64,000 bases of DNA from assembly GCF_017751145.1 (NCBI RefSeq), contig NZ_CP046640.1:2708137-2772136 (forward strand), read 5' to 3'. Origin of the DNA: Iocasia fonsfrigidae. Its GTDB lineage: Bacteria; Bacillota; Halanaerobiia; Halanaerobiales; DTU029. Shown one piece after another: positions 1,633 to 58,113 of the stretch (within the stretch, counting starts at the first letter, position 1; each line of letters begins with the position of its first letter). The notes under the pieces were generated by a model. It did not search any database. It had not been told where the DNA came from and saw only the letters and a program-made list of their open reading frames with translations. A program made the translations under genes and the position numbers.

Positions 1633-1654
1633 TTTTTCCCCCTATTTGTTCAGA

Positions 1655-2686
1655 CTAATATTCTGGAAATATTAATTGTTTATTATCATCAATACTTATC
1701 CTAAAAAACTTATTCATTAAATCTGCATATACTGCTTGTGGTTCAATATCGGCAAACAATTCAGGGTGAGCAAGTTTAGCATAATATAAGTCTCCAACTA
1801 CCGAAGGCAACCCACTATTTACAAGCCAGGTCATTACATATACCCTGTCATTCTTAACAGCTGATGTATTTTTAAGACCTGTTCTGTTGATTATTTCCTT
1901 CCAAGACTCTTTCATTTCTTCATTAGAAACTCCAGGACTTTCCATCCTAATTATTAATTCTGGATTTTCTTGAATTACATACTCACTGGAAACCTCAGGA
2001 TATCTTCCCACAGTATTAGCACAGATATTTATCCCACCTGCCAATTCAATTCGCGGTTGGACAGTCGCTTTAGAACTTCCGGTTTTATACTTGCCTCTCC
2101 ATTCCCAATAAATACGTGTTTTTTCGTCTTCCTTCAGTCCAGCAACTCTCTCTTTAATTAAGACCCTATACTGAGATATAAAAGCAATTAACTCCGTAGC
2201 TTTCTCTTCATTATTAACAATCTTAGCTAATTTTCTAATTACATTAAAAAGATTACTGGCTTCAGAAGTTCTTTCAGCTATTGTTGGAATACCAAAATCA
2301 TTGAACTTTTTGCGGGCATCATCCTGAAGCATGGTATCAGCAATAATAACATCAGGGTTCAACTCTATAATAGACTCAATTTGCGGTCTATATGAAGAAC
2401 TTGCAACAATTGGTACATCTTCTAGCATACTCAAAGCAGCTGAGGTAGCACTCCAATCATCCCTTCCTATTATTTTATTACCAGCATCTAGGGCAATAAG
2501 CATTTCATTTAAAGGAGCACTAAGACAAATAATTCTTTTCACAGGGAGTTTAATTTTAACTCTGTAACCATCAGAATCTGTTAGGATAATAGTGTTATCT
2601 GCAAAGACATAAGTTGACCCTAATAAAACTATCACTAATGAAAAAACAAGTAATAAAATATAGTTTTTCAAATTTTTCTGGCCCAT
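1655..2686 (-). CDS. btuF: BtuF-like periplasmic binding protein
   Basis: Substrate-binding protein of the importer, 343 aa, PF01497-type. The first 29 residues are a signal peptide (charged start, hydrophobic core, cleavage near YVFA). The body has the family pattern: RIICLSAPLNEMLIAL near residue 50, NPDVIIAD near residue 108, and a C-terminal lobe ending the domain. No lipobox cysteine is seen at the signal peptide, so it is probably free in the periplasm, as expected for a diderm cell. It is the first gene of the btuFCD operon, about 240 bases downstream of a cobalamin riboswitch. The substrate could be a corrinoid other than B12. Confidence 0.9.
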   Translation of the reverse strand: MGQKNLKNYILLLVFSLVIVLLGSTYVFADNTIILTDSDGYRVKIKLPVKRIICLSAPLNEMLIALDAGNKIIGRDDWSATSAALSMLEDVPIVASSSYRPQIESIIELNPDVIIADTMLQDDARKKFNDFGIPTIAERTSEASNLFNVIRKLAKIVNNEEKATELIAFISQYRVLIKERVAGLKEDEKTRIYWEWRGKYKTGSSKATVQPRIELAGGINICANTVGRYPEVSSEYVIQENPELIIRMESPGVSNEEMKESWKEIINRTGLKNTSAVKNDRVYVMTWLVNSGLPSVVGDLYYAKLAHPELFADIEPQAVYADLMNKFFRISIDDNKQLIFPEY

Positions 2687-2729
2687 TTTTATCTCTCTTT
2701 CTTATAGTATAATTAATATATAATATTAA

Positions 2730-2755
2730 AGCTGCCTCTTCTAAAAAAGGCAGCT
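2730..2755 (-). other. Hairpin in the btuF leader
   Basis: An 8-bp perfect inverted repeat (AGCTGCCT / AGGCAGCT, arms 2730-2737 and 2748-2755) between the riboswitch terminator and the btuF start. On the minus strand it is followed by TTTAATATT, a poor terminator tract. It may be a second regulatory stem or a translation-level element. Role unproven. Confidence 0.45.
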
Positions 2756-2818
2756 GTGAATAATCATGTTTTATGTATAAATAGTAATAAATACATCATT
2801 TAACGATTGTATAATAAT

Positions 2819-2844
2819 AAAAAAACGCCTTTCCGGGGAAAGGC
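2819..2844 (-). terminator. Riboswitch-controlled intrinsic terminator
   Basis: On the minus strand an 8-bp G+C-rich stem (GCCTTTCC / GGAAAGGC, 2827-2844) is followed by GTTTTTTT. It lies between the cobalamin aptamer and btuF, the classical position for a transcription-terminating expression platform. High B12 would be expected to favour this stem and stop transcription of btuFCD. Confidence 0.85.
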
Positions 2845-2934
2845 AAAAATAATCATATCTAAATCAGCACATATTAATACTTATTCAAACATGAGTTATC
2901 CCTCGTTACCTCTAATGCCGGAGGAAATACGAAG

Positions 2935-3108
2935 TACACAATAATGGCAGGTCTTCTGGCTCCAGCCCCTAACAATTATTTCATGCCTATCCTTCCCGTT
3001 TAAAAACAGTGGATATGCAAATACTTATACAGGCTGTTACAGCTACGACTACAGCAACGGTCTCTCACCGTTTTCCCTATTAATTTTAAAAACCATTAAT
3101 GGAACTCA
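2935..3108 (-). ncRNA. Cobalamin riboswitch
   Basis: Read on the minus strand, the leader contains the conserved aptamer blocks in order: GAGTTCC, AGGGAAAACGGTGAGA, CCGTTGCTGT, CCACTG, GGGAAGG, and the B12 box AGCCAGAAGACCTGCC (2946-2961). This order is diagnostic of the adenosylcobalamin/cobalamin class. A terminator follows at 2819-2844, so control is probably at transcription. It governs the btuFCD operon and is the main reason for assigning those genes to corrinoid uptake. Confidence 0.95.
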
Positions 3109-3255
3109 ATTATATTTTATTGTAACAAACAAATAAAATTATCCCGCTCCTTTTTTTATTGCTATATATTACTGATTTATAATAACACATAGCTCAAAAA
3201 TATATCTTGTAATAATTTGTACATATTTTGTAATTTTTAATTAAACTCTAATGTA

Positions 3256-3285
3256 ATTATACTATATTACAGAACAAAAGGTCAA
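3256..3285 (-). promoter_or_regulatory. Sigma-A-type promoter of the btuFCD leader
   Basis: On the minus strand TTGACC (3280-3285) and TATAAT (3256-3261) are separated by 18 bases, a near-consensus vegetative promoter. Transcription would start near 3249 and run through the riboswitch. Confidence 0.6.
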
Positions 3286-3337
3286 ATAACTATTAGAATT
3301 AAAATAAATTTAAACATTTCACAGACAAACTTTTATC

Positions 3338-5083
3338 CTAAAACAAACTATCAGCTGCCGTTAACTCAGTATTAAATTCCGTCTGATACAATTTCTTATA
3401 TACACCATTTTCTTTCTTGATGAGTTCTTCATGTCTGCCCCTTTCTACAATACCCTCATCAGTCAGAACAAGGATCTCGTCAGCATTTTTCACTGTAGAA
3501 AGCCGGTGGGCAATAACCAGTGTTGTCCTACCTCTGGCTAACTCTTCCAGTGAAGCCTGGATTATCTTTTCACTCTGATTATCCAGTGAGGAAGTGGCCT
3601 CATCTAAAATTAAAATCGGTGGATTCTTTAAAAATGACCTGGCAATCGATAATCTCTGTTTCTGACCCCCGGAGAGCTTGACCCCTCTTTCACCAATCTC
3701 TGTTTCATAGCCATTTTCCATATTTTTAATGAATTGATGGGCATTGGCTTTCCTGGCTGCTTCAACTATCTCTTCATCTGTTGCTTTGAAATTTCCATAA
3801 AGGATATTATCCCTGACAGTCCCATTAAACAAAAATACATCCTGTTGTACTATACCGATATTATTCCGCAATGAATTGAGTTTGATATCCTTTATATCTA
3901 CTCCATCTATAAAAATCTTACCACTATCTATCTCATAAAAACGGGGTAACAGATTACAAATAGTTGTTTTACCGGCCCCAGAAGGGCCAACAAAAGCTAC
4001 TGTCCGTCCTGGTTCTACTTCAATATTAATATTTTTTAGTACATGTGATTTGTTATCATAACTAAAACTAACATTCTGATATTTAATTTTCCCCTTCACA
4101 TCATCCATTTCAATAGCATCACTTTTATCTTCTATCTGCGGTTTAATAGCCAGTATATTGGTAAAGCGGCTAAAACCAGACATACCCCTCTGCAATTGCT
4201 CATTAAAATTTACTAACCTTCTTATCGGCTGCATAAACATATTGACATAAAAGAGAAAAGCTACTAATTGACCTGTACTCAATTCGCCCCGGTAAATAAA
4301 ATATGTACCAGCACCAAGTGTAACAACCCTGATTAGATTGATAAACAGGTTCATCCCGGCATGAAAACGGGCCATATTTTTCATGGCATATTCCCGGGAA
4401 CGGCGGAACTGATTATTACCTTCATCAAATTTCTTCTTTTCAAAACCTTCATTAGTAAACGATTTAACTACCCTGATACCACTAAGGCTATCTTCAATAA
4501 TAGAATTTACCTCAGCAACCTTTTCTCTGATATCTTTAAAGGCAATATACATTTTTTGACCCAATTTAAGAGAAAAGAATATCATCAGCGGCAGCAGCAT
4601 AAAGGTTACCAAAGCCAGTTTCAAACTCATTCCAGCCATAATAAGGAAAGAACCAATAATCATGATCACAGAAATAAAAAAGTCTTCAGGACCATGATGA
4701 GCTAGCTCAGAAATATTATTAAGGTCATTAACAATTCGGGACATAAGATAAGCAACCTTATTATCATCATAAAACTTAAAAGAAAGCTTCTGGAGATGGC
4801 TAAAAATCTCTTCCCTCATATCAGTCTCCATCCTAATACCAACAACATGACCCCAGAAGTGAACTATATATTGTAAAATAAAGCGAAAAAGATAAAGCAC
4901 TATAAGAATAAACACCAGTCTAGCCGCTATAGTAAAATTCCTATCTGGAAAATATGTATCGACTAGCTTCTGAATAAAGATTGGAAAAACAAGATCTAAG
5001 CCTGACATTAAAAAGGCACAGGAAATATCCAGTACAAATAATTTCCAGTGTTTTTTATAATAACTACTAAATTTCTTTAACAT
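3338..5083 (-). CDS. MsbA/MdlB-type ABC exporter (half transporter)
   Basis: A 581-aa type IV exporter with an N-terminal six-helix membrane domain (about residues 1-310) fused to a nucleotide-binding domain. Walker A (GPSGAGKTT) is near residue 365, the signature LSGGQKQR near residue 470 and Walker B with the catalytic glutamate (ILILDEAT) follow. It is a single gene, so it probably works as a homodimer, pumping lipid, drug or peptide outwards; the substrate cannot be read from sequence. It starts at ATG 5083, with a GGGGGG tract 11 bases upstream as an unusual ribosome site. It lies 127 bases after feoB, with no clear terminator between them, so cotranscription is possible. Confidence 0.9.
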   Translation of the reverse strand: MLKKFSSYYKKHWKLFVLDISCAFLMSGLDLVFPIFIQKLVDTYFPDRNFTIAARLVFILIVLYLFRFILQYIVHFWGHVVGIRMETDMREEIFSHLQKLSFKFYDDNKVAYLMSRIVNDLNNISELAHHGPEDFFISVIMIIGSFLIMAGMSLKLALVTFMLLPLMIFFSLKLGQKMYIAFKDIREKVAEVNSIIEDSLSGIRVVKSFTNEGFEKKKFDEGNNQFRRSREYAMKNMARFHAGMNLFINLIRVVTLGAGTYFIYRGELSTGQLVAFLFYVNMFMQPIRRLVNFNEQLQRGMSGFSRFTNILAIKPQIEDKSDAIEMDDVKGKIKYQNVSFSYDNKSHVLKNINIEVEPGRTVAFVGPSGAGKTTICNLLPRFYEIDSGKIFIDGVDIKDIKLNSLRNNIGIVQQDVFLFNGTVRDNILYGNFKATDEEIVEAARKANAHQFIKNMENGYETEIGERGVKLSGGQKQRLSIARSFLKNPPILILDEATSSLDNQSEKIIQASLEELARGRTTLVIAHRLSTVKNADEILVLTDEGIVERGRHEELIKKENGVYKKLYQTEFNTELTAADSLF

Positions 5084-7289: not shown

Positions 7290-7985
7290 TTACTCCACCT
7301 CTACATAAATTTCTGCTGCTTCTTTTTTCCGCAAACTCAAATTATATCCCTTTACATTAAGTTCAATAGGGTCTCCTAAAGGTGCCTTACCCTTTACTTT
7401 TATATGTGTCCCTGGAATCAAACCCATTTCTAACAATTTCTTTTTCTTCTTCCCTTTAGCAGTAATCTTAACAATTCTAGCAGAATCATTAACAACAAGC
7501 TCATTTAATGAAGCAATACTATCTGGGGAAATTTTTCCCTTGGTTTCAGTCATCTGAAATAGTTCACTTATACAACTGCTTTCTAAATCAATACTATTTG
7601 TATTAACCAGAAAATCAACTAACCGTTCCATAGTAACAGAACTAACTACATGTTCCATTAAACAGGCATCTTTCTCAGCAATCTCCTCTTCAACTTTCAA
7701 AATATTAACTAAGAAATTCTTAATAATTTTGTGTCGGCATGATATTTTTCTTGCATAATCCTTACCCATTTTAGTTAAGATAACCGGTCCATATTTTTCC
7801 TGTTCTACCAGTTTTAATTTAGATAGTTTATTAACTACTTCGTTTACACTGGAGGCAGCAATCTCTAACTTCCTGGCAATATCGGATACACGGGCTGAAC
7901 CCTCTTTCTCGGAAATCAAAAATATTGTTTCTAAATAATCTTCCATTGATGAAGAAAGACTCATTGTCTTATCCATCATAATCAT
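7290..7985 (-). CDS. DtxR/IdeR-family iron regulator with a FeoA-like C-terminal domain
   Basis: A 231-aa metal-dependent repressor. Residues 10-70 form the winged helix (MEDYLETIFLI is the family signature). Residues 75-150 carry the metal and dimer domain (HKIIKNFLVNIL, then CLMEHVVS with candidate ligands). Residues 155-231 are a FeoA/SH3-like domain (LLEMGLIPGTHIKVKGKAP). It probably represses with Fe(II) or Mn(II). It is followed by feoB after 15 bases, and a DtxR-type palindrome stands 29 bases upstream of it, which implies autoregulation. An alternative start is the ATG at 7979, better spaced from AAAGG. It is the most likely owner of the repeated TTAGG-N4-CCTAA sites in this window. 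Confidence 0.93.
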   Translation of the reverse strand: MIMMDKTMSLSSSMEDYLETIFLISEKEGSARVSDIARKLEIAASSVNEVVNKLSKLKLVEQEKYGPVILTKMGKDYARKISCRHKIIKNFLVNILKVEEEIAEKDACLMEHVVSSVTMERLVDFLVNTNSIDLESSCISELFQMTETKGKISPDSIASLNELVVNDSARIVKITAKGKKKKKLLEMGLIPGTHIKVKGKAPLGDPIELNVKGYNLSLRKKEAAEIYVEVE

Positions 7986-18865: not shown

Positions 18866-19603
18866 TTACTTAGTTTTATCTCTTAATTCATCCATAATAT
18901 TCTGTGCTTTTCTAAATATCATCGGCTGTAACATTCTCTTCCACCACGGAACATCTGCATGGAGATATTTAACAAACTCAGACAAATCTTCTCCATAAAA
19001 AGACTCCATCCCTTCTACGTGAACATATTGCTGATGTCCTTTTACCCCATCTGGTGAAAATTCAATCGATATATCTTCAACAATATCTTTATATTTTCCA
19101 AAATTAATCTTCTTTTTAATACAAATTTCGTGAAGTTCTTTATCAAAAGTAGCTTCCATTGATACCCATTTACCATTTAAATGGATTTCAGGAAAAGTAT
19201 GGGCAAATGGGTTTGACCACCTTTTATAAGCAAATCCAGGCAAAAAATCTTCCAATGCGTTTTTACGTACATACATAAAATGAAACCTCGCTTTTAATCC
19301 AGCTTCTCTTGCCATTGCAACCAGCAAATTTGCTTTCTGCATACAAACTCCCTTTTTATTTTTTAATACCTCTTCTACAGGAATTGCTTGTGGAAAAAGC
19401 CACCCGAATTTAATTTCATCTCTAATAAAATAATATATTTTCTCTGCTTTTTCTACATCGGTTTCTGCCCCCGCAATTACTTCTTGGGTTGTTTTTTTTA
19501 ATAAGTCATCTTCATATTCCTCACAATTTCCTTTTATCGAAGAAAAATCTAATAAAAATAAACTTAATAAAACTACTAACATAGTTTTCCTTAACATTAG
19601 CAT
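18866..19603 (-). CDS. Exported transglutaminase-like cysteine protease-fold protein
   Basis: A 245-aa protein with a signal peptide (about 1-26) and a transglutaminase core. The catalytic Cys is in KNKKGVCMQKANLLVAMAR near residue 88, His in FAHTFPEIHLNGKW near residue 135 and Asp in SMEATFD near residue 150. Such enzymes act on peptides or peptidoglycan in the envelope. Its start (19603, or ATG 19597) overlaps the stop of a truncated ABC exporter gene, so it was once translationally coupled to that exporter. It may have processed the exporter's cargo. A strong palindrome follows it. Confidence 0.8.
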   Translation of the reverse strand: MLMLRKTMLVVLLSLFLLDFSSIKGNCEEYEDDLLKKTTQEVIAGAETDVEKAEKIYYFIRDEIKFGWLFPQAIPVEEVLKNKKGVCMQKANLLVAMAREAGLKARFHFMYVRKNALEDFLPGFAYKRWSNPFAHTFPEIHLNGKWVSMEATFDKELHEICIKKKINFGKYKDIVEDISIEFSPDGVKGHQQYVHVEGMESFYGEDLSEFVKYLHADVPWWKRMLQPMIFRKAQNIMDELRDKTK

Positions 19604-19915
19604 TCACTCCTAATTTGTTTAATACTATACAACTTCCACTCTTTCGCCTTTTCTCGAGCATCCCAAAGTTCTTTATACAACCCTTCATTTTGCATTAGCT
19701 CATGATGTTTTCCTGTCTCAACAATTGAAAACAATAATTTTATCAGCATTTCTAATTGTCTTTAAATGATGAGCAATAACGATTACTGTTTTTTCAACAG
19801 CCAGATTACTCATCGCCTCTTGAATCTTTTTTTCATTAAGCGGATCAACATTACTTGTCATTTCATCAAGTATAACAATAGGAGCATCTTTCAAGAGAAC
19901 CCTGGCAATTAAATA
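19597..19915 (-). pseudogene. 3' remnant of an ABC exporter ATPase
   Basis: The minus strand from about 19914 encodes [22 protein letters not shown], then [16 protein letters not shown], and after a frameshift the tail GKHHELMQNEGLYKELWDAR. It ends at TAA 19597-19599. The membrane domain, Walker A and signature are gone. A decayed MarR cassette abuts it. Confidence 0.8.
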
Positions 19916-19918
19916 TTG

Positions 19919-20055
19919 TTAACAAGGTTAATATTTTATTAAAAATTTTTGTCTTATTCTTTCATTCAAAGACTTATAAATGCTTTTTTGTAAAATTGCT
20001 GATAGCAACTTACTTTTAATTATATTGTACACCTGGTTAATAATTTTGTCAAGTG
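19919..20055 (-). pseudogene. Internally deleted copy of the MarR cassette
   Basis: Both ends match the flanks of the intact MarR gene at 20956: left TTAACAAGGTTAA plus a C-terminal coding scrap, right TGGTTAATAATTTTGTCAAG. About 450 bases of coding sequence are missing between them. Confidence 0.65.
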
Positions 20056-20143
20056 TTCTTTTGAGTTGAAATAAGAATGTTGAAATAAGAAAAAAATCAA
20101 GGAAACCCTCAAGTCTCGTCTGTTCCCAGGTAATCCACTTAAA

Positions 20144-20833: not shown

Positions 20834-20925
20834 AATAAATCTCTCCCCTATAATGCTTTTAGTCTTAATTTTATAATCATCTTTAAGTAATTTGCTAGTA
20901 TATTATCCTCAAAACTAAAAAAATG

Positions 20926-20938
20926 TTAACCAGGTTAA
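20926..20938 (-). promoter_or_regulatory. MarR-type operator
   Basis: TTAACCAGGTTAA, a perfect 13-bp palindrome between the MarR gene and the activase relic downstream. A half-site (TTAACCATG on the minus strand) lies upstream of the MarR start near 21480, and a variant (TTAACAAGGTTAA) at 19919-19931. The pattern suggests autoregulation. Confidence 0.6.
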
Positions 20939-20955
20939 TATCTTATTAAAAAAAT

Positions 20956-21402
20956 TTATTTAATGTCATCTAATTCTTCGTTCAACTTTTTTAAGAAATT
21001 TTCAATTGTTATAATTTCTCTATCTGCTATATTTTCCAAAATATCATACAAACTCCCAAATATTTCACGAGAAAACTCTTCATGTCCTTTAAAAGCTGTT
21101 TTACCTCTATCAGTAAGATTAAATATCACCTCTTTGTGGTTACCAACAGGTCTACTCTTAAGAACATATCCTTTCTTTAAAAGTTTTTTTATAAATTTAG
21201 ATACAGCGCTTTTAGAAACACCTAAATTTTCAGCTAGTTGTGTTAAATTAATAGCCGGTTTTTCACCAATAGCAACTATTGTATGAATTTCGGTAGAATA
21301 CAACAAATCCCCAGTACTAAAATCCCTTGGTTCACTTTCAAGTAAATTAAATTTATTATGAGCCCTTAAAAATAAATCAACTATTTTGCTATACCTTTTC
21401 AT
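20956..21402 (-). CDS. MarR-family regulator
   Basis: A 148-aa winged-helix protein, standard MarR length. The recognition helix region is LAENLGVSKSAVSKFIKKLLKKGYVLKS, abbreviated, near residue 58; the wing holds NHKEVIFNLTDRG. It starts at ATG 21402 with GGGGTG upstream. It resembles the MarR proteins at 21883 and 46265 in layout (EIHTI / EIHMI before the DNA-binding part). Its likely target genes next door are decayed, so it may now only regulate itself. Confidence 0.88.
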   Translation of the reverse strand: MKRYSKIVDLFLRAHNKFNLLESEPRDFSTGDLLYSTEIHTIVAIGEKPAINLTQLAENLGVSKSAVSKFIKKLLKKGYVLKSRPVGNHKEVIFNLTDRGKTAFKGHEEFSREIFGSLYDILENIADREIITIENFLKKLNEELDDIK

Positions 21403-21509
21403 TTAAACACCCCAACAACATTTTAACATATATAATTAGTATAATATAATTTTAATCATTATATATATTGTACACATGGTTAATAATTTTGTCAAGTATA
21501 TTTTCTAGT

Positions 21510-21940
21510 TTAAGAGCATAAATCTTTCATGTGATAAGATTTATTTATCACAGTATTTAACAAGTCATTATTATGTGATACTATTATATATGGTTGAGAT
21601 ATCCTGTTTAAAATATTAACCATTCTTTCTATAGCTTTTTCATCAAGACTGGCAAATGGCTCATCCAGCAGTAGTACTTCCGGTTCCATAGCCAGCACTG
21701 CTGCAAAAGATATTATCTTTTTTTCGCCTTGAGATAGATTGTAAGTAACCCTTTTTTCAAAACCGTTCATTTCTACTAATTCCAGGGTATTACGGACAAT
21801 TTCCAGTACTCTCTGCTTACTTTTTCCCAGATTCAAAGGACCAAAGGCAATATCTTCTTCTACTGTAGGACAGAATAACTGGTTATCTGAATCCTGAAAT
21901 AAATACCCGACCCTTTCCCTGACTTCTAAAAACATATTTA
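21510..21940 (-). pseudogene. Truncated CbiO/EcfA-type ATPase
   Basis: The 3' two thirds of an energy-coupling ATPase: RVGYLFQDSDNQLFCPTVEE (Q-loop block), YNLSQGEKKIISFAAVLAM (signature) and VLLLDEPFASLD (Walker B), then IVSHNN (H-loop). The N-terminus with Walker A is absent; homology begins at LEVRERV, where the MarR gene at 21883 runs in. It cannot bind ATP properly. It suggests a former cobalt/nickel- or siderophore-type ECF importer here. Confidence 0.8.
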
Positions 21941-23383: not shown

Positions 23384-23408
23384 GATTTCACCTCATTTTT
23401 TAAAATTA

Positions 23409-23422
23409 TTAGGTAAACCTAA
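23409..23422 (-). promoter_or_regulatory. DtxR-type iron box upstream of the methyltransferase
   Basis: TTAGGTAAACCTAA, a perfect palindrome apart from the central four bases, 26 bases before the TTG start. Confidence 0.85.
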
Positions 23423-23505
23423 CTAGTTTATAAAGTTAGTATATATTAATTAAGAAATCCTTTCATCACTTACGATTAGATGCTTATTCACTTAAGGGTT
23501 ATAAA

Positions 23506-36241: not shown

Positions 36242-37996
36242 CTAATCTTTAGCTAAAGTGGCTTTACTAATCTCCCAACTTTTTGCCTTCATTCGTCTAT
36301 CCCAGAAGTCCTTATATTTTCCCTCTTCTTCTACAAGCTGATTATGATTACCCTTCTGTACAAGATTTCCATTTTCTAATACTAAAATCTGGTTTGCACT
36401 ACGAATAGTCGATAACCTGTGAGCAATCACCACCAGGGTCTTATCTTTAACCAGTTCATTGATAGCCAGTTGAATATATTTTTCATTCTCCGGGTCAACA
36501 CTTGCTGTTGCTTCATCCAGTAATATAATAGGGGCATCTTTCAAAATAGCCCTTGCAATTGAGATCCTCTGTTTTTCACCACCAGACAATGATGAGCCAC
36601 CTTCATCAACCATAGTGTCATACCCATCTGGCAACTCCATAATAAACTCATGGCATCTGGCTTTTTTAGCAACTGCTATTACTTCTTCACGACTAGCCTC
36701 CGGGTTTCCAAATTTAATATTATTAAAAATCGTATCATTAAAGAGATATACATTCTGAAAAACCATACTGATGTTAGATAAAAGACTATCACAAGTCATT
36801 TCTTTGACATTAACCCCACCAACTCTGACTTCACCCTTCTGTACATCCCAGAAGCGGGCAATCAAATTGGCAATGGTAGTTTTACCAGAACCAGATGACC
36901 CCACCAGGGCTGTCATACTTTTTTCAGGTATTGCAAAACTAATATTCTGTAATACCTTCTTATCGTCATAAGCAAAAGAAACATCCTTAAATTCAATATC
37001 AAAGCTATCAAGCTTAATATCCCTGCCATTTTCATCTATAATCTCTATATTTTTCAGGGCATCATATCGATCAAGCCCGGCCTCCATAATCCTGATTTCG
37101 GCACTCAGTAAACTCAAAGCATTAAAGGGTAAGTATATACGGAAGATAAATACAAAGATCATCAACATTATGGACATATTTAGACTCCCGTAAACAGTAA
37201 AACTACTAGCCAGCAAAATAGTTAAGCCAATTCCCAGGGCAAAAATACTCTCAAAACGAAATATATAAGGCATAAAACCCTTTTCCATCTCTATAGAAAT
37301 ATCTCTGAACTCTTCAAAAGCCTTTTTAGTCGCCTTTGCTTTGTCTCCACTCATATTGAAGGCCTTTATTACTGACATCCCCTGCACATATTCCAAAACA
37401 GCAGAAACTAATTCTGATTGTTTATCCTGTCTAATAACAGAATGTTTTTTCCCCACTGCTAAAATCTTCTTGAGCAAAAAGACTCCAATTAAAAAAGCTA
37501 AAATTGATATTACTGCTATTCTGTAATCAATAATCAGCAAAAAAATACAAGCCACCATAGCATTGACATAAGCGATAACAACTTTGTCAATGGCATTCAT
37601 AGCATACATCTCAATAAAATTTATATCAGAGGTAATCACGGCCGAAATATAACCCTTATTCCCTTCACTAAAATAACCCATGGGAAATCTCTTAAATCTA
37701 TCACCAATTTTTATTCTTTCCCGGGCGAAAATCTCAAAACCAGTACCACTCTGCAAAACATAGATAACCCTTTTTAATACACATTGTAAAAGCAAAGCAG
37801 TTATAATAATACCACCACTTATCCAGACATCATTTACATCCAAAGCATCATTCATTATCCCAATTAATATATATAAGATTATAAAGATAGGGACATTATT
37901 AAAAATAGCTTCAAAAAAACTTACAAACATGGCCAGTTTTATTTTGCCTGCAAACTCACCAGCCAGCTTTAATACCCTTTTAATAATACTAAGCAT
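36242..37996 (-). CDS. ABC exporter pair 2, second half
   Basis: A 584-aa half transporter: membrane domain, Walker A GSSGSGKTT near residue 369, signature LSGGEKQR and Walker B ILLDEATASVDPENE. It overlaps the partner's stop by 8 bases, as in pairs 1 and 3. Its C-terminus (NLVQKGNHNQLVEEEGKYKD) closely matches a remnant at 46863-47008, showing that a second copy of this gene once stood next to the AraC gene. Substrate unknown; by comparison with AraC-regulated YbtPQ/PchR systems, a siderophore is plausible. Confidence 0.88.
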   Translation of the reverse strand: MLSIIKRVLKLAGEFAGKIKLAMFVSFFEAIFNNVPIFIILYILIGIMNDALDVNDVWISGGIIITALLLQCVLKRVIYVLQSGTGFEIFARERIKIGDRFKRFPMGYFSEGNKGYISAVITSDINFIEMYAMNAIDKVVIAYVNAMVACIFLLIIDYRIAVISILAFLIGVFLLKKILAVGKKHSVIRQDKQSELVSAVLEYVQGMSVIKAFNMSGDKAKATKKAFEEFRDISIEMEKGFMPYIFRFESIFALGIGLTILLASSFTVYGSLNMSIMLMIFVFIFRIYLPFNALSLLSAEIRIMEAGLDRYDALKNIEIIDENGRDIKLDSFDIEFKDVSFAYDDKKVLQNISFAIPEKSMTALVGSSGSGKTTIANLIARFWDVQKGEVRVGGVNVKEMTCDSLLSNISMVFQNVYLFNDTIFNNIKFGNPEASREEVIAVAKKARCHEFIMELPDGYDTMVDEGGSSLSGGEKQRISIARAILKDAPIILLDEATASVDPENEKYIQLAINELVKDKTLVVIAHRLSTIRSANQILVLENGNLVQKGNHNQLVEEEGKYKDFWDRRMKAKSWEISKATLAKD

Positions 37997-39794: not shown

Positions 39795-39887
39795 CTACAA
39801 GCCCTTTTTCCTGATTAATTCCTCATGTCTGCCTTCCTCTACCAGTCTACCTCTGTCCATCACAATAATCTTATTAGCACTCCGCAT
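39795..39887 (-). pseudogene. 30-codon tail of an ABC exporter
   Basis: Encodes MRSANKIIVMDRGRLVEEGR then HEELIRKKGL and a stop: the end of an ABC exporter ATPase domain. The rest of the gene is absent. It is one of four such tails in the window. Confidence 0.75.
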
Positions 39888-39933
39888 TAAAACTTTCCTT
39901 TCTATTTAAGTATTTTAAACCACCTTGATAGTT

Positions 39934-40000: not shown

Positions 40001-40155
40001 AAATTATTTCTATCACTTTACTCTGCAGATATAACACTTCAATAATCAACCCACAATCCCAGCTGCTTTTCGCAATTAAAAAGGAACAATAATTGCTGGC
40101 ATATTAAGTTTTTTACTAATTTGAATCAACTTATTATCAAAAATTGTTCTTTTCA
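40001..40155 (-). pseudogene. Internal fragment of an AraC-family regulator gene
   Basis: About 155 bases that match the interval 47630-47770 inside the intact AraC gene at high identity, including CTTTACTCTGCAGATATAAC and CCCAGCTGCTTTTCGCAATT. Only the middle of the gene remains, with small indels. Confidence 0.85.
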
Positions 40156-40174
40156 ACTATCTAGATAATAAGTG

Positions 40175-46862: not shown

Positions 46863-47008
46863 CTAATTTTCAACAACAACAGCTTTACTAATTTCCCAGC
46901 TTTTGGCCTTCACTCGTCTATCCAAGAAGTCCTTATATTTATATTTCCCCTCTTCTTCTAGAAGTTGATTATGATTTCCCTTTTGTACAAGATTTCCATC
47001 TTCTAACT
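46863..47008 (-). pseudogene. 3' remnant of a duplicate of ABC pair 2, second half
   Basis: Encodes LEDGNLVQKGNHNQLLEEEG, then KDFLDRRVKAKSWEISKA and a short tail, nearly the same as the C-terminus of the protein at 36242-37996, with a two-residue insertion. The remaining 90 percent of the gene is missing. Confidence 0.88.
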
Positions 47009-50820: not shown

Positions 50821-51478
50821 TATCCTCCTTAGTATTTATAGTTTCATTACTTTCATCAAAATCTACATGGGTTTCCCCTAACCATTCTGATAAAAGTTGA
50901 ACTGACTCTTTCATCTGGGCATAATAGCGATCAATTTTACCCTCAAAATAATGGTAAAAAATCATGGCAGGAATAGCTACTGTTAGACCAGTAGCAGTAG
51001 TAATTAATGCCGCCCAAATACCTCCCGCTAATACTACCGGGTCTACACTTCCTCCTAATTCCTGAATCTTTTTAAAGGCCTCAATCATACCAGCAACAGT
51101 TCCCAGGAGACCAATCAGAGGAGAAACATGTGCCACAATGCCTAAACCACTAATATTCCTTGACATCTTTCGTAATTCTCTTGAACCAATTCGAAATAGT
51201 ATTTTATCGCGCTCTTCCTGTGATTTTTCATGCTGCTCAATTCCAGCACTAATAACCTGAGAGACCGGGCAATTTTTAGCTTGACTAATTCGTATTGCTT
51301 CCGAAAACTTCTCCTGCTGAACTAAAATACCAACCTGCTCTAACATTTCATTAGAATAATTTTTAAGTTTTCTAAAATAATACCATCTCTCTAATACAAT
51401 AGCCAAAACAATACTAGAACATATTAATAATGGGTACATTAAAACCCCGCCTTTTTCAAACAATAAATAAATATTAAT
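50804..51478 (-). CDS. exbB: ExbB/TolQ-type proton channel protein
   Basis: A TolQ/ExbB-family protein of 219-224 aa with three helices: residues 10-25, SPLIGLLGTVAGMIEAFKKI near residue 120, and WAALITTATGLTVAIPAMIF near residue 155. The family N-terminus FEKGGVLMYPLL lies upstream of the first ATG (51439), so translation begins earlier. TTG 51463 lacks a ribosome site; ATT 51478 has GGGGGG eight bases upstream and gives MNIYLLFEKGG, a better family match. The start is uncertain between these. It is the first gene of the iron-controlled exbB-exbD-tonB operon. Confidence 0.93.
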   Translation of the reverse strand: MNIYLLFEKGGVLMYPLLICSSIVLAIVLERWYYFRKLKNYSNEMLEQVGILVQQEKFSEAIRISQAKNCPVSQVISAGIEQHEKSQEERDKILFRIGSRELRKMSRNISGLGIVAHVSPLIGLLGTVAGMIEAFKKIQELGGSVDPVVLAGGIWAALITTATGLTVAIPAMIFYHYFEGKIDRYYAQMKESVQLLSEWLGETHVDFDESNETINTKEDIEYGI

Positions 51479-51533
51479 TTTCTCTACCCCCCATTAATTT
51501 ATAATAATAGTACTCTGCCAGTACTAAATAAAA

Positions 51534-51743
51534 CTCCAAATTATTTAGGTATTCCTAACTTTGAATTAAAAAAATATTATCTCAGTTTCATAGAATATTC
51601 CTTTATTCTATTACCTTATAATATACAGAAAATAATAAGTCAAATCAATAAATCACTAAAAGCATAAGGACTAAATAATCTTTGTAGGATTAAATTATAT
51701 GCAGCATACACCCTATTTCTCATTTTTTAGGACAAACTAATAA
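51534..51743. repeat. Iron-box promoter segment, copy 2 (copy 1 at 11108-11311)
   Basis: The same promoter stretch as upstream of the TonB receptor, here driving exbB-exbD-tonB. It is slightly longer through small insertions. It abuts the ZinT-type promoter copy at 51761. Confidence 0.88.
51545..51558 (-). promoter_or_regulatory. DtxR-type iron box upstream of exbB-exbD-tonB
   Basis: TTAGGTATTCCTAA, in the same position within the duplicated segment as the receptor's box. Confidence 0.82.
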
Positions 51744-51760
51744 AAGTAATATTTTTTTGC

Positions 51761-51920
51761 TATTCTGATAACACCTCCTGTTTTAATATTTTAGGTTTCC
51801 ATAAATGCAAAACAAAATTCTCCTCTTTATTTGAGAATAAGTTCCAATTTCATTTGGCTTTATTTTACTATGTTTTTTTTGTATTGTCAAATATTTATTT
51901 CTTATAAATGAATTTCTATG
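51761..51920. repeat. ZinT-type promoter segment, copy 2, orphan
   Basis: A copy of 49023-49202 with no gene of its own downstream. Its box (51791-51804, TTAGGTTTCCATAA) has lost one conserved base. Confidence 0.85.
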
Positions 51921-52139
51921 AAATAATAAATTATCCCAACAAAAAGAGCTGGTATAGTAGTAATAACAGTAGCCCAGAAAGACGATTTTCTATCAATAGC
52001 CAGGAGTGGGAATAAGGCATCTCCATCCTGAGATATGGTATTTGCCAGTAAGGCAGCAAAACTGCCCAACAAAAGAACCTACTTCCAAAAAAGCACCCTC
52101 AGCACATCCTAAAAATATATCCAAAATTTCATACATCAT
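51902..52139 (-). pseudogene. Remnant of an ArsP_2-type heavy-metal permease
   Basis: The start at ATG 52139 (AAGGGAA upstream) gives MMYEILDIFLGCAEGAFLEV. Another frame then gives LLANTISQDGDALFPLLAID and SSFWATVITTIPALFVGIIY with a stop at 51902. These match the two ends of the putative 10-TM heavy-metal exporter family; about 80 percent of the gene between them is deleted. Confidence 0.7.
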
Positions 52140-52195
52140 CAATTCCCTTCAATTACAGATGCTCATTATTATAATTTTTACTTAAATCTAATCAT

Positions 52196-53701
52196 TCATC
52201 TAACTTTATATGCACTAGATCTAGTATTAAATTTACTATTTTCAATATAAAAAAACGATTTGATTTTCCTTTCACCCCTGTCATCTAACGGATAGTTAGC
52301 TATTACCTTGCCTTCTTCAAAATGCAAAACATGGGTACAACTCTCAAATATCAGCTCCAGATCATGGGAAATGATAAATAGGGTTTTTCTCATCTGTTGA
52401 AGTCGTTTTAAATTATTGGCCACTTCTTTCATATGACGCAAGTCAAGCCCACTGGTGGGCTCATCAAAGATTATAATCTCTTTCTTTGAGGCAATGGCAC
52501 TGGCAATTGCCACCCGCTGTTTTTGACCACCTGATAAAGACATGGGATGCAGGTCTTTCATTGCTAACAGATCAAGGCTACTTAAAATATTTTCCGCCTT
52601 TAACGTATCAGGTTCATCCATACTCAATAAAATCTCATCAAGGACACTTTCTGTAAAAAGCTGATTATTGACATCTTGCATAACCATATAACACTGCTTC
52701 AAACGTTCTCTTCCCTTATATACCTTGCCACAGAGGGATATAGTCCCTTGGCAACTTTTCTCCAATCCACAGAGACATCTGGCAAAGGTTGATTTTCCAG
52801 CCCCATTGTATCCAATTACAGCAACGGCACTACTTCTTGGTATTGCTAGCGAATCTATCTTAATAAAAGGAGATTCATTTTTATAAGAAAAGACAAAATC
52901 GCTCAGGCACAAATCCTTTGATTTTGGAATCACCGTTCGCTTATCTCGTGTTAAGCCTTCCCAAAAAAGCGGCCTAAGCCCCATGCCTGAAAACTCTTCT
53001 AAATTAATTCTTTTCATTTCTTTGTTATTTAATTCTCTTTCTATTTTACCATTTTTCATATACAGAATGCGGTCAGCCAGTTCACGCATAAAATATAAGC
53101 GATGTTCGGCAATAATAATGGTTTTACCCCGACTTTTCCACATTTCAATAAGTTGTCGCAGATCATCAATCGCTATTGTATCCAGATTGGAAGACGGCTC
53201 ATCAAGAACAAAAATATCAGGACTGGCTGTTGAAACAGACGCACAGGCAATTTTTTGTTTTTCTCCACCTGACAAGTGAAAAATACTTCTATTCATCAGT
53301 CTCTCTATCTTAAAATCAAAAACAGTTTTTCTTATTCGTTGTTTTATTTCTTCTACAGGCAAACCCATATTCTCACAAGCAAAGGCAAGCTCACTTGTAG
53401 TATCTACATTAAAAAACTGAGAACGCGGATTTTGAAAAACCGACCCTACCATTTGAGCCGTCTCATAAATGGGCATTTTTTGGACTTCTAAACCATTAAT
53501 TAGTACCTTTCCTGACAGAGAGCCTTCATAGTAATTGGGTATCAAGCCATTTATCAACCTTGTCAAAGTGGTTTTTCCACAGCCAGATTCCCCACATAGC
53601 AAAACAAGTTCACCCTGATGAATTGTTATATTAATATTATGTAATCCCTTTTCTTTTTGGCCCTGCGAATATGAAAAAGAAACGCTTTTCAGCTTAATAA
53701 T
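52196..53701 (-). CDS. ECF transporter double ATPase (EcfA1-EcfA2 fusion)
   Basis: Two ABC ATPase domains in one chain. Domain 1 has Walker A GESGCGKTT, signature LSGGEKQK and Walker B IFVLDEPSSNLD. Domain 2 has GYNGAGKST, LSGGQKQR and IIIFDEPTSGLD. The first ATG (53602) would delete the first strand of domain 1. Reading back gives IIKLKSVSFSYSQG in frame from ATT 53701, with GGGGGG seven bases upstream, so an AUU start (about 501 aa) is likely. It powers the EcfT and S subunits encoded just upstream. Confidence 0.9.
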   Translation of the reverse strand: MIKLKSVSFSYSQGQKEKGLHNINITIHQGELVLLCGESGCGKTTLTRLINGLIPNYYEGSLSGKVLINGLEVQKMPIYETAQMVGSVFQNPRSQFFNVDTTSELAFACENMGLPVEEIKQRIRKTVFDFKIERLMNRSIFHLSGGEKQKIACASVSTASPDIFVLDEPSSNLDTIAIDDLRQLIEMWKSRGKTIIIAEHRLYFMRELADRILYMKNGKIERELNNKEMKRINLEEFSGMGLRPLFWEGLTRDKRTVIPKSKDLCLSDFVFSYKNESPFIKIDSLAIPRSSAVAVIGYNGAGKSTFARCLCGLEKSCQGTISLCGKVYKGRERLKQCYMVMQDVNNQLFTESVLDEILLSMDEPDTLKAENILSSLDLLAMKDLHPMSLSGGQKQRVAIASAIASKKEIIIFDEPTSGLDLRHMKEVANNLKRLQQMRKTLFIISHDLELIFESCTHVLHFEEGKVIANYPLDDRGERKIKSFFYIENSKFNTRSSAYKVR

Positions 53702-53717
53702 TCTTAAGCCCCCCTTT

Positions 53718-54443
53718 TTAAAGTAATATAAATCCTATAAATGTAGTAACAGCAATTATTGATAATATAATATCCTGAATGCCAAATCCAATTTCACATA
53801 TATTTGTTCTTTTAACTGGACCGCCAAGCCCTCTAGTCAATGATGCAGCAGAGAGTTCATCTCCAATTTTAACTGTTGACATCAACAGAGGAATCAACCT
53901 GTACTCTAACATCAATATAGGGTTTTTGAAAAAACCACCAGAGCTAAAACCTACTCTTCTCATTCGCATAGCATTACTAATAGAACGGGCCTCCTCCCCA
54001 ATTGTAGGGAAAAAACGAAACATAACCGCCATAGGAATGATTATTTTCTGTGGTACATGCATATGCTCCATTGATGCTATAAATTCACTTACTGTTGTCG
54101 TGCTTATAAGATAATATCCCATAATAAATCCAGGCATCATCCGATATAGCATACCTGAAACCATTACAATGAAAATATTCAGGATCCCATAGGTAACTGG
54201 AACAAGAAATTCATTAATTAAAATAGCAAGAGTATATGCAAGGGTACAATATAAAGCCGGCTTTATTTTTTTATTCACAAATAAAAGAAACAAAGGAATT
54301 GCTGCCATAAGCAGCATAATATAGATAATAGCCCCTCCAAAAATACTAATATTGATTATCAACATCAGCATTAGTTTTGTTCTTGGATCCAATTTGAAGT
54401 AAGTATTAGCCTCAACACTTCGTAAAATTTCCTTCTGCATCAC
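53718..54443 (-). CDS. EcfT/CbiQ-like transmembrane coupling protein
   Basis: A 241-aa inner-membrane protein with five to six helices. The coupling-helix motif appears as ARSISNAMRMRRVGF near residue 155 and DELSAASLTRGLGG near residue 200 (AxRxRG-like blocks). It overlaps the S-component gene by four bases (ATGA) and is followed by the ATPase gene. It couples ATP hydrolysis to tilting of the substrate-binding S protein. Confidence 0.88.
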   Translation of the reverse strand: MMQKEILRSVEANTYFKLDPRTKLMLMLIINISIFGGAIIYIMLLMAAIPLFLLFVNKKIKPALYCTLAYTLAILINEFLVPVTYGILNIFIVMVSGMLYRMMPGFIMGYYLISTTTVSEFIASMEHMHVPQKIIIPMAVMFRFFPTIGEEARSISNAMRMRRVGFSSGGFFKNPILMLEYRLIPLLMSTVKIGDELSAASLTRGLGGPVKRTNICEIGFGIQDIILSIIAVTTFIGFILL

Positions 54444-55021
54444 AAAATTCCTGCCCTCTTAAAATGTTTTTTTAGAATTGCTTTACCAAAAAAAGCCCCT
54501 ATTATGCCAGCAATAAATATTACTCCAACCATAACATAGGCGATCCAAACTGGAGTCATGGTAAAAATAGCATTTGCATATTCCTTACCCATACTCTCCC
54601 GAATATAAGCGAAATAACTGTCGCGCATAATCCACAGAGGAAGCATTGCCCCCATTAACCAGAAACTGAAAATACTATATCCTAACACAGTATGCTTAAA
54701 ACTTTGATATTTACCAGCCTTGAAAATTAAATCAGCAAAAAATCCACATATAATTGTCGCGACAAGCGGTACCCATGTATGTCCAGTTGCAAACATTAAA
54801 AGACCTAAAATAATAGACATAATTGTCACCATACCAAATTTTTTAACCTTTGTTAAAAAAAGCATAAATGGAATTGAAGATATGATAGGCATATATAATG
54901 GAAAAAAAAGAAATATAATCGGAATAAAACCAAGCATTCCACTTGCAAACATAATAAGAAAATAAAGCGCTGTAAAAATACCGACATTGATCAAATCTTG
55001 CACTTCCAGTTTCTCACTCAT
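54440..55021 (-). CDS. ECF S-component, MptD/Trep_Strep type
   Basis: A 193-aa membrane protein with about six helices. It resembles the Trep_Strep/MptD family of putative ECF substrate-binding components: LINVGIFTALYFLIMFASG at the start and GHTWVPLVATIICGFFADLI in the middle. Known ECF units with this kind of S protein include ones inside siderophore loci of streptococci (equibactin-type). The DtxR box at 55220 makes a ferric-chelate or metallophore substrate likely here. It is first in the S-T-A operon, 40 bases after a truncated 32-codon ORF. Confidence 0.82.
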   Translation of the reverse strand: MSEKLEVQDLINVGIFTALYFLIMFASGMLGFIPIIFLFFPLYMPIISSIPFMLFLTKVKKFGMVTIMSIILGLLMFATGHTWVPLVATIICGFFADLIFKAGKYQSFKHTVLGYSIFSFWLMGAMLPLWIMRDSYFAYIRESMGKEYANAIFTMTPVWIAYVMVGVIFIAGIIGAFFGKAILKKHFKRAGIL

Positions 55022-55061
55022 AATTCAAACCCCCTGGTTTATTAATATTTAATTTGCCTTT

Positions 55062-55160
55062 TCATCCCATTACCAAAATACCACCTATTTCAAGCAAAAC
55101 CGAACATACTCCAGAATAATCTGAGGCAAATGGTGGCAACACTTTATATAAGTCTTTCAT
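55062..55160 (-). pseudogene. 32-codon N-terminal relic resembling nitrogenase component 1-like proteins
   Basis: ATG 55160 with a strong AGGAAGG site encodes MKDLYKVLPPFASDYSGVCS and then VLLEIGGILVMG and a stop. The LPPFA-D-SGVCSVL-E-GG pattern is, from memory, that of the N-terminus of nitrogenase component 1-like oxidoreductases found in clostridia. The rest is gone. It sits 60 bases after the iron box and leads the ECF operon, so it is still transcribed and probably translated. Confidence 0.55.
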
Positions 55161-55219
55161 CAAAATCCTTCCTGGATTATTCTATTGTAGTAATTTTAAA
55201 ATAAGGAACAAAAAATACT

Positions 55220-55233
55220 TTAGGTGAACCTAA
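55220..55233 (-). promoter_or_regulatory. DtxR-type iron box of the ECF operon
   Basis: TTAGGTGAACCTAA, 60 bases before the 32-codon ORF and about 200 before the S component. In the rest of 55161-55531 I see no gene. Confidence 0.83.
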
Positions 55234-55531
55234 AAATTAATTAAAAATGATAATAGCTTTCATTTTCATTTAGTTTATATTTTAATATGCATATTTATAA
55301 ATGTCAAGGCCACACTTCCTTTTTATCTCTTAATATATTTAAATATATTCCATTTACTTAATAATACTTACTAATATTTGTTATAATTCTAAAATATAAA
55401 TTAAGAACAATTAATATAGTTACAAACCAAAGATATTTCTATTAGTGTTATATTATACAGATACCTTTTTAAAAATTATAGTACATATATCAATTAAACA
55501 ACTTAAAGCAAGACAGCTATCCACTAATTTT

Positions 55532-55603
55532 TCATTCTTTCGCCTGTTCCTGAACATTCCAAAGTTTTTTATATAATCCATCATTTCTTATTAATTCATA
55601 ATG
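55532..55603 (-). pseudogene. Short 3' tail of an ABC exporter
   Basis: Encodes HYELIRNDGLYKKLWNVQEQ then AKE and a stop: the end of an ABC exporter ATPase domain similar to the relic at 19597. It sits directly beside the module C terminator. Confidence 0.72.
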
Positions 55604-55613
55604 TATTCAAAAA

Positions 55614-55655
55614 CAAAAGATATCTGTGTCATTGAAATGACACAGATATCTTTTG
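55614..55655 (-). terminator. Terminator of module C
   Basis: A perfect 20-bp stem (55614-55633 / 55636-55655, core AGATATCTGTGTCATT) with a two-base loop. It is the counterpart of 26984-27025, with two base pairs changed on both strands so that pairing is kept. Confidence 0.88.
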
Positions 55656-55667
55656 TGCCTTTATAGC

Positions 55668-58113
55668 TTATAAAAAATCCTTTGACTCATCAATTATTTT
55701 TTCATATTTCTTATCAAAGGGTTTAATCATATTTAAACACACTGGGGTTACAAAATAATCCGCCAGGAGTGCTGCCAGAATACCCACACCGGCTAAAACT
55801 CCAAAGTGAATATATAATTTTGCAATAGAGCTTAAATAGGCTGCAAAATTAAAAATCAATACCAGAGAGGTCATAAATAGGGATTTACCAACTACTCTAA
55901 AGGTATGTTCGATAGACAAAACATAGTCCCCTCTCTGTTGATACTCATATTTAGCATGATTAATAAAGTGGATTGTATCATCAACTGCTAGCCCCATTAT
56001 CATCGGCATAAGTGTCGCTGTAATCATATCAAAAGGTATACTAAAAATACCCATGACACCCCCAACAGCTAAAACCGGTGAAATATTGGGAATAAGCCCT
56101 ATCAAACCAACTTTAACACTGCCAAAGACAAGCATCATTAAGAAAGCTATTACTATTAAAGCAATTAAAAAGGCCTTTACCTGTCCTATCGAAACCTTAT
56201 AACTCATATCAGTATATTTAGCACCAGAACCACTAATAAATACCTTGGCCTCAGGAAAAAGTTCTTTTCCTAATTCTTCTATTCTCTGGTGTTCAGCTAA
56301 TAGTTCTTTTTGCCGAAATTTAGAGATTTCAACCCTGATCCGTAACTTTTTATAATTATAGTCAACCCACTTGTCTAACTCATCCCCCCCCTGCATTTTC
56401 ATACAAAAGTAAGGTCTGGGCTATCATTGGTCTTGTCTCTGGTATTTTGTAATATGCAGGATTATCCTCATTTAAGACCTGATTTAGGTCTTTTAAGATA
56501 TTTAAAATAGAAGTAGTCCTTTTAGTCAAAGAAAATCCTTCAATCTCTTGAACAAAACTATCTAATCTCTGTAAAAATTCCGGGTCTTTAACTACATTAT
56601 CCTCTGTAAATTCAATCCCAATATCATAATTAATCATAGAGCCAATTTTCGTTTCTCCTACACTTATCATCCTATCTACAAAAGGAACCTTTCTCCCCAT
56701 TGTCCTTTCATTATCAAAATCCACTTCTGTTTTTGTTAGTCCATAGACAAATATTAGAGTTAGAATAATAGAAACAGAAATTATTGGCATAGTATTCTTC
56801 AAAATCCATTTGCCCAAAGCAGCTAATTTGCCTTCTAAACCACTACCCTCCTCTTCGACTAATTTATGAGAAGATTTTCTATCTCTACCAAAACTCAAAA
56901 CAATAGCGAAAACTAAAACAGTCAATAAATAGGTAAGGGCTACTATTAAGGCAGTAGTATAACCCATCCAATTTAATACCTTTATCTTAATAAAGGCAAA
57001 AGACATTAAGGCACAGATCGTTGTTAAGGCTGTAAATAAAAGCGGCCAGCCTGTCTTTTCTATGGCAGTTATTACTGCTTCTTTCCTTTTCCCTGTCCTT
57101 AAGAACTCTTTTTTAAAAAAGTTAAAGAGGTGGATTGAATAACCGACTGCCACAGCTAAACCTAAAAATAAAGGCATAGGGAGAACCGAAGGCTGGACTG
57201 TTGTCTTAAAATATCCTTCAATCCCTAAGGTAATAACCATTGCTCCTATAGCTATGACAATTGGGAAAACCACCCCCCTAAAAGAGCGTAAAAATACCCC
57301 CAATAGAATTATAGAAATAATTAGCCCCAATTTCATCAATCCCGGGGTCTCTTTGAGAAAAAAATCCCTCTTATCTACCGTCATACAGGCTGTCCCTGTG
57401 GTTTTGGGATTTAAGCTCTGATACTTATCTTGCCGGGCAATCCTATTTGCTATCTTTCCCGTAATATAATTAGGAGCAACCGGCTCTGACGATAGATTAA
57501 ATCCTTGATATAGTTTGGGATATTCTTTAGCTTTATTCTGTAAATAAGTCAAATAATCTTTATTTTTTCGCCAATTATCTGGATCTTTCCTTAATTCAAC
57601 TAGAACCCATGTCTCTTTAGCATCATCAGATACCAGTCTATTATAAAGTGTTTTTTTAGCTAAGGCTTTTTGCTTTAATCCCTCTAACGTCTCCTTATCA
57701 GCTGGTATCTCTTCAGGAATAAGGTCTCCTACATCTATACCCCAGTCTGTTCCTGTCACAAATTCAAAGTCTGTAATCGAAGTAACCTCATCTACCATAG
57801 GAACTTCATGTTCTAATTCATATGTTAACTCCCTTACTTTTGCTAGATTTTCCTTCTTGAAAACATTATCAACCTGAATATGTACTGCACATATATCTGT
57901 ATTGCCAAACATCTTCTCAAATCTATCCTCTAATACTATTACTGGATCATCATCGAAATACCAGGCATCATTAGATGAATCTTTTTCTATCCCTTTTAAT
58001 CCCATAAAGCTAAAACCCACAAAAATAGCAAATATAATTAAGACTAAATAACGATATTTAATTACTTTCTTCCCTAATAATCTAAATCTCGCATTGATCT
58101 TCTCTAAATCCAT
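55668..58113 (-). pseudogene. Module C RND/MMPL-family transporter, frameshifted at a G8 run
   Basis: Homolog of the module B RND protein along its whole length (about 814 aa). The first 577 codons (56380-58113) carry the first half with GLAVAVGYSIHLFNFF and most of the second periplasmic domain. The second frame (55668-56402) carries DKWVDYNYKKLRIRVEIS and the last helices with GLAVDDTIHFINHA. The break is in a run of eight G on the coding strand; seven would restore ENAGGDELDKWV. It may be phase-variable, recently inactivated or miscalled. If really shifted, the protein lacks the last six helices. Confidence 0.88.
56394..56401 (-). repeat. Poly-G(8) tract at the frameshift
   Basis: Eight C on the plus strand. 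The paralog has no such run (GCTGGAGGAAATG at the same codons). A long G run is unusual in this AT-rich sequence. Confidence 0.9.

Follow-up and report, generated by a model that had tools for sequence, protein, structure and literature searches.

A group of nitrogenase-like proteins that includes Dhaf_1539/1540 and Mlab_1040/1039 shows a 2+1 cysteine pattern and lacks the ligands of the FeMo-cofactor (Dos Santos et al. 2012, PMC3464626). Its gene neighbours are ABC transporters or, in gut Firmicutes, hydrogenase-maturation genes, and metal delivery for cofactor assembly has been suggested as the role of the Dhaf_1539/1540-type clade (PMC3464626). Among the other nitrogenase-like systems, DPOR (BchLNB/ChlLNB) also uses a NifH-type reductase and has no FeMo-cofactor ligands. 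The methylthio-alkane reductase MarHDK and the isethionate reductase IsrHDK are ATP-dependent two-component reductases of anaerobes (PMC12552129, PMC11423573), and their loci belong to sulfur metabolism and contain the radical SAM partner MarB/IsrB. The locus described here carries a fossil of the first of these clades, which was recognised in 2012 (PMC3464626) and is functionally unsolved.

The analyzed window comprises 64,000 nucleotides (G000:C1:2708137-2772136) of the 3.93-Mb genome of Iocasia fonsfrigidae. Genomes (G) and loci (L) used for comparison are referred to by number. A short ORF in the window was confirmed by sequence comparison as the 5′ end of a nitrogenase component-1-like gene, here called N1b, which encodes a NifK/N-like subunit. 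Its translation is MKDLYKVLPPFASDYSGVCSVLLEIGGILVMG, followed by a TGA stop, and it consists of 31 recognisable N1b codons, a Gly codon and the stop. The ATG start is preceded by a strong Shine-Dalgarno sequence (AGGAAGG), and an in-frame TTG at 55163 would lengthen the ORF by one codon. The earlier note had described a 32-codon, nitrogenase component 1-like ORF with its own strong ribosome site, located between a DtxR box and ECF transporter genes, and this description was borne out in full (Table 1).

Table 1 Features of the window discussed in the text, with positions counted from its first nucleotide.
Feature	Position	Strand	Remarks
N1b remnant ORF	55062-55160	minus	32 codons, ATG start
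EcfS	54440-55021	minus	Trep_Strep / MptD-family S component of ECF importer; PF09605 E = 3.3e-64, 216.7 bits; TIGR02185 E = 1.1e-42, 146.3 bits (cut-off 76.45)
EcfT	53718-54443	minus	CbiQ-type transmembrane component; PF02361 E = 8.2e-19
EcfA	52196-53698	minus	Dual ATPase; ABC_tran x2
EcfA start region	53690-53705	minus	AGAATTATTAAGCTG after GGGGGG ribosome site
DtxR/IdeR-type box	55219-55234	.	TTTAGGTGAACCTAAA; 0 mismatches to palindrome
Sigma-70-like promoter	55279-55307	minus	TTGACA-17-TAAAAT; 11/12 consensus positions
Probable ABC C-terminal tail relic	55538-55603	minus	IrtAB/YbtPQ-like; upstream of promoter
Terminator-like hairpin	55613-55656	minus	20-bp stem, then T run; 1 found vs 0.1 expected
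DtxR-FeoA fusion-like ORF	7290-7985		231 aa; assigned by sequence and by relatives beside feoB
ABC-protein tail relics	19600-19912, 39798-39899, 46866-47006
Further relic of the AraC and ABC-tail set	40002-40165
Activase relic	20833		Two pieces split by internal stop
ABC/EcfA-type ATPase fragment	21510-21935
DtxR box of O-methyltransferase	23408-23423
Palindromic TTAACCnGGTTAA-like repeats	19911-19957, 20016-20070, 20918-20964, 21459-21513		MarR/activase relic region

For the identification of the remnant, an HMM was built from the N-termini of 12 intact N1b proteins, leaving out the window sequence, and searched against 36,524 ORFs. The only match was the window ORF (E = 1.6e-15, 57 bits), aligned from position 1, and the runner-up reached E = 0.73 and 10 bits. 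The remnant is identical to the N1b proteins of G242, G073 and G394 at 22/31 positions each, compared with a maximum of 12/31 in 200,000 shuffles. Its alignment with the intact proteins begins at their Met1, where the N-terminal block M-x-x-L-x-x-x-LPPFxxDYSG-x-x-S-x-L starts, which the remnant has retained. In a tblastn search of 7.3 Gb of plasmids, the only record found was a Treponema saccharophilum ‘nitrogenase component 1’ (E = 0.05), again aligned from the first codon. One tblastn alignment of N1b continued beyond the stop into EcfS and was judged to be a spurious gapped extension. A search of the component-1 family with the 32 residues had been proposed in the earlier note; the N1b HMM returned the match described above, although Pfam (including PF00148, Oxidored_nitro, whose cut-off was not reached), NCBIfam and other generic libraries gave none for the peptide. 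This silence is explained by PF00148 aligning to intact N1b, which scores 106.9 bits on this model, only from about residue 28.

The remnant ends at residue 32, so that the DEPRW motif and the cluster cysteine (Cys40 in the N1b of G242, or roughly residue 37 when counted from the true start) are deleted. As this cysteine is lost along with all that follows in the protein, no nitrogenase-like activity is possible. A search of the 64-kb window for NifH, N1a and further N1b sequence found none. When the peptide was searched in 60 relatives, only its own genome was found at a meaningful E-value. Elsewhere, the I. fonsfrigidae genome contains no N1b and four adjacent full-length nif-type component-1 genes that score above the cut-off of PF00148 and are immediately preceded by a NifH-like gene (G000:C1:706299-711902), so that the organism may fix nitrogen.

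Intact relatives, found by using the T. saccharophilum gene as probe, occur in many Bacillota. They are NifH-N1a-N1b operons in which N1a and N1b match PF00148 and NifH matches PF00142; the N1b of G242, for example, starts with MKGLFKVLPPFAPDYSGVCSVLYNLGGMVVVHDAGGC. The clade nearest to the remnant comprises G242, G189, G073 and G394 (support 0.95), whose mutual N-terminal identity is 22-26/31. Among the cysteines, only Cys61 and Cys119 in N1a and Cys40 in N1b never vary, while Cys22 of N1b is present in 11/16 cases, and the FeMo-cofactor ligands are absent. These operons thus resemble the Dhaf_1539/Dhaf_1540 and Mlab_1040/Mlab_1039 clade in combining NifH with two component-1 subunits, of which the NifD/E-like one has two cysteines and the NifK/N-like one has one, and both published contexts, ABC transporter and hydrogenase-maturation genes, were recovered among them. 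The comparison with this clade was made on its published features. In contrast to that clade, the window keeps only the first 31 NifK/N-like codons, and these stand before an ECF operon and not beside FecBCD. The nearest solved structures for the N1 proteins are NifE, NifD and BchB/ChlB chains (N1b profile against 2xdq_B, E = 1.1e-17). Despite this likeness to DPOR, intact N1b scores below every equivalog cut-off of NCBIfam and reaches 56.7 bits on the curated BchB model, whose cut-off is 490, and the neighbours of the N1 genes are metal-chelate importers instead of chlorophyll genes.

FecB/FecCD/FecE metal-chelate importer genes were linked in 21/30 N1 loci, and HypF/HypD, HydE/HydF or TM1266-type genes were found in 12/30, with some of these loci also having Fec genes. 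By sequence, the remnant falls into the mostly FecBCD-linked branch, whose near clade member G073 has no FecBCD neighbour. FecCD and FecB resemble importers of B12, haem and siderophores. A second branch (L118, L119, L141, L149, L150, L184-L186 and L190) is linked to HypF, HypD, HypE-like, HydE, HydF and TM1266 genes, several of its loci having FecBCD in addition and some having two NifH-N1a-N1b sets. In L182 (G500, 1444-4665), an N1-FecBCD operon has a divergently oriented ECF transporter from a different family as its neighbour. Upstream of three of the intact operons there are DtxR-type boxes (at most one mismatch), 292 bp before nifH in G242, 111 bp before nifH in G426 and 66 bp before the operon-leading fecB in G433, compared with a chance expectation of about 0.05 over all scanned upstream regions (single-base shuffling). 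This FecBCD linkage, partly under DtxR-type boxes, also separates the intact N1 relatives from the sulfur-metabolism loci of MarHDK and IsrHDK. A literature search, with most subscription papers outside its coverage, yielded no report of DtxR control of N1 operons.

Based on this linkage, the three boxed operons, the absence of FeMo-cofactor ligands, the likeness to tetrapyrrole reductases and the resemblance of the Fec importers, the most likely function of the parent would be that of a NifH-driven, ATP-dependent low-potential reductase, which would lack a FeMo-cofactor and use an [Fe-S] cluster at an interface. Our best guess for its substrate would be a metal chelate or tetrapyrrole imported by the linked FecBCD under iron limitation. 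Alternatively, the parent may have delivered metal for cofactor assembly. A more specific scenario can be offered only tentatively and is itself improbable: the clade would be an iron-starvation-induced reductase of strict anaerobes, which strips iron from, or dismantles, haem, corrinoids or siderophores imported by FecBCD, and in I. fonsfrigidae an ECF importer would have taken over this import before the reductase was lost.

The EcfS gene begins 40 bp beyond the stop of the remnant and is followed by EcfT and EcfA in an operon that looks intact. With its S component scoring above the family cut-off and T and then A following in this order, the operon encodes an importer of the Trep_Strep (MptD-family) type. 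At the expected start of EcfA, the codon is ATT, compared with ATG in relatives (which start ATGATTGAG); the frame is open to about 53698, and no ATG, GTG or TTG occurs at the expected position. This appears to be either a rare start codon or an early sign of decay of the importer. The closest relatives of the ECF genes lie outside the order. An operon of Geosporobacter ferrireducens (L013) has an EcfS that is 73% identical, the same S-T-A order and an AraC regulator and IrtAB-like ABC pairs nearby, but no N1b remnant ahead of EcfS.

The box, an exact match to the DtxR-type operator palindrome, sits 58 bp upstream of the remnant ORF. Exact matches to TTAGGTNNACCTAA occur four times in the whole 3.93-Mb genome, all inside the window, and 10 of the genome’s 19 near-consensus DtxR-like sites (at most one mismatch) fall in the window, which makes up 1.6% of the genome. 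Judged from this operator, the remnant/ECF transcript is probably repressed by iron. The putative promoter is a consensus match, and such matches are not more numerous in this region than in shuffled sequences. The hairpin divides the remnant-ECF unit from the upstream RND operon. An Rfam scan of positions 51000-56000 gave no match. The probable ABC tail relic between promoter and hairpin is supported by a weak match (45% identity over 22 aa to an ABC protein of the window; E = 0.005 when only a small set of proteins was searched).

In addition to the remnant-ECF unit, the window contains FecBCD, FeoB, the DtxR-FeoA-like gene, a TonB receptor, three IrtAB/YbtPQ-like ABC pairs and regulators of the MarR, AraC and TetR types. 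ABC-protein tail relics are found at three places and probably at a fourth, just upstream of the remnant. The AraC relics share 65-88% identity with the AraC at 47225, and one ABC tail shares 77% with the protein encoded at 36242-37996. These AraC and ABC-tail relics point to duplications and deletions within the iron island. The palindromic repeats listed in Table 1 are possibly operators of paralogous MarR regulators. Taken together, the relics of the window seem to derive from several iron-uptake cassettes within a single rearranged island.

We consider it very probable that the ORF is a pseudogene fragment of a decayed, horizontally acquired NifH-N1a-N1b operon, which was left between the iron box and promoter and the ECF operon. 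This reading builds on the observed sequence identity, the box, the gene order and the intact relatives with their genomic context, and for the route of decay we infer the following steps. An N1 operon of the Dhaf_1539/1540-type clade would have arrived by horizontal transfer, because it is missing from all sampled relatives in the order. Deletion or unequal recombination in the repeat-rich island of paralogous ABC genes would then have cut the operon, and the ABC tail relics, including the one just upstream of the remnant, fit unequal recombination. The rearrangement would have spared the N1b ribosome site and the first 31 codons, fused between box/promoter and ECF operon. Since N1b is normally the third gene, the junction of box and N1b calls for either a second rearrangement event or an ancestral gene order unlike the usual one. 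Today, the ECF mRNA is predicted to carry the remnant as its leader and to be repressed by iron, and the remnant is possibly translated into a non-functional peptide of 32 aa.

The state of the remnant itself counts to some degree against decay, as its frame is intact, its ribosome site is strong and, with 22/31 identical positions, it is conserved to the same degree as the intact clade members are among each other. With such conservation, a very recent deletion and a retained role as leader look alike. It is therefore conceivable, although rather unlikely, that the 5′ end of N1b has been kept by selection as a translated leader which aids expression of the ECF genes, consistent with its location directly between promoter/box and EcfS. 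However, the arrangement was found in no second genome, the ECF homologs in G004 and G042 and 80 ECF loci have no such ORF, the 40 nt between the stop of the remnant and the start of EcfS give no evidence of tight translational coupling, and no known leader was matched in Rfam.

The earlier note had further proposed that a nitrogenase-like protein, an activase, a methyltransferase, an ECF importer and a TonB receptor once formed a single iron-regulated system. The pieces it named are real: the activase relic with its internal stop, the iron-boxed methyltransferase (an O-methyltransferase) and the ABC/EcfA-type fragment. All parts lie in one DtxR-rich island, and the N1-Fec operon of G242 has IrtAB-like ABC genes and a class I methyltransferase no more than 10 kb away. 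N1b-type genes were also found in 8/50 ECF-bearing genomes compared with 18/398 of a broad sample, for which the E-value limit was stricter; these rates are not corrected for phylogeny. Nevertheless, the importer genes linked to N1 in 21/30 loci are those of FecBCD, whereas the ECF family of the window was present in 0/30 intact N1 loci and N1 in 0/80 ECF loci. The search for full-length relatives, also suggested in that note, revealed intact genes and the DtxR-boxed operons described above, but no linkage to the ECF or activase families of the window. The activase family was unmatched in the 30 N1 loci. The relic is 66% identical to an intact 1334-aa BadF/DUF2229 activase of G004, a genome of the same family of organisms. 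This activase leads a separate cassette, in which a methyltransferase of class I comes next and an IrtAB-like ABC pair last (L156, 11933-19999), and 20 kb of sequence at this locus contain no nitrogenase genes. A single composite system was therefore rejected as very unlikely. A relative of the methyltransferase of the L156 cassette is also present in L113. The O-methyltransferase-MarR pair has its best relative in L041, where it neighbours a FecB-like gene ahead of an ECF operon and where N1 is missing; the N1-Fec operon of that genome is located elsewhere. Finally, a chance ORF that merely resembles a nitrogenase N-terminus, as the lack of any Pfam or generic-library match might suggest, is refuted by the unique HMM match and the identity far above the shuffle maximum, and can practically be dismissed. 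The ORF also has the correct start codon, reading start and ribosome site, and the Pfam silence is expected from the start of that model at about residue 28.

On the reading preferred here, a fragment of a decayed operon, the N1b remnant is a fossil of an ordinary kind that plays no catalytic role and comes from a functionally unsolved family. Its intact relatives, being mostly linked to FecBCD and in some cases preceded by DtxR-type boxes, lead to the testable prediction that they reduce imported metal complexes and are regulated by iron. If true, the reduction of imported metal complexes would be a new physiological role in the nitrogenase superfamily.
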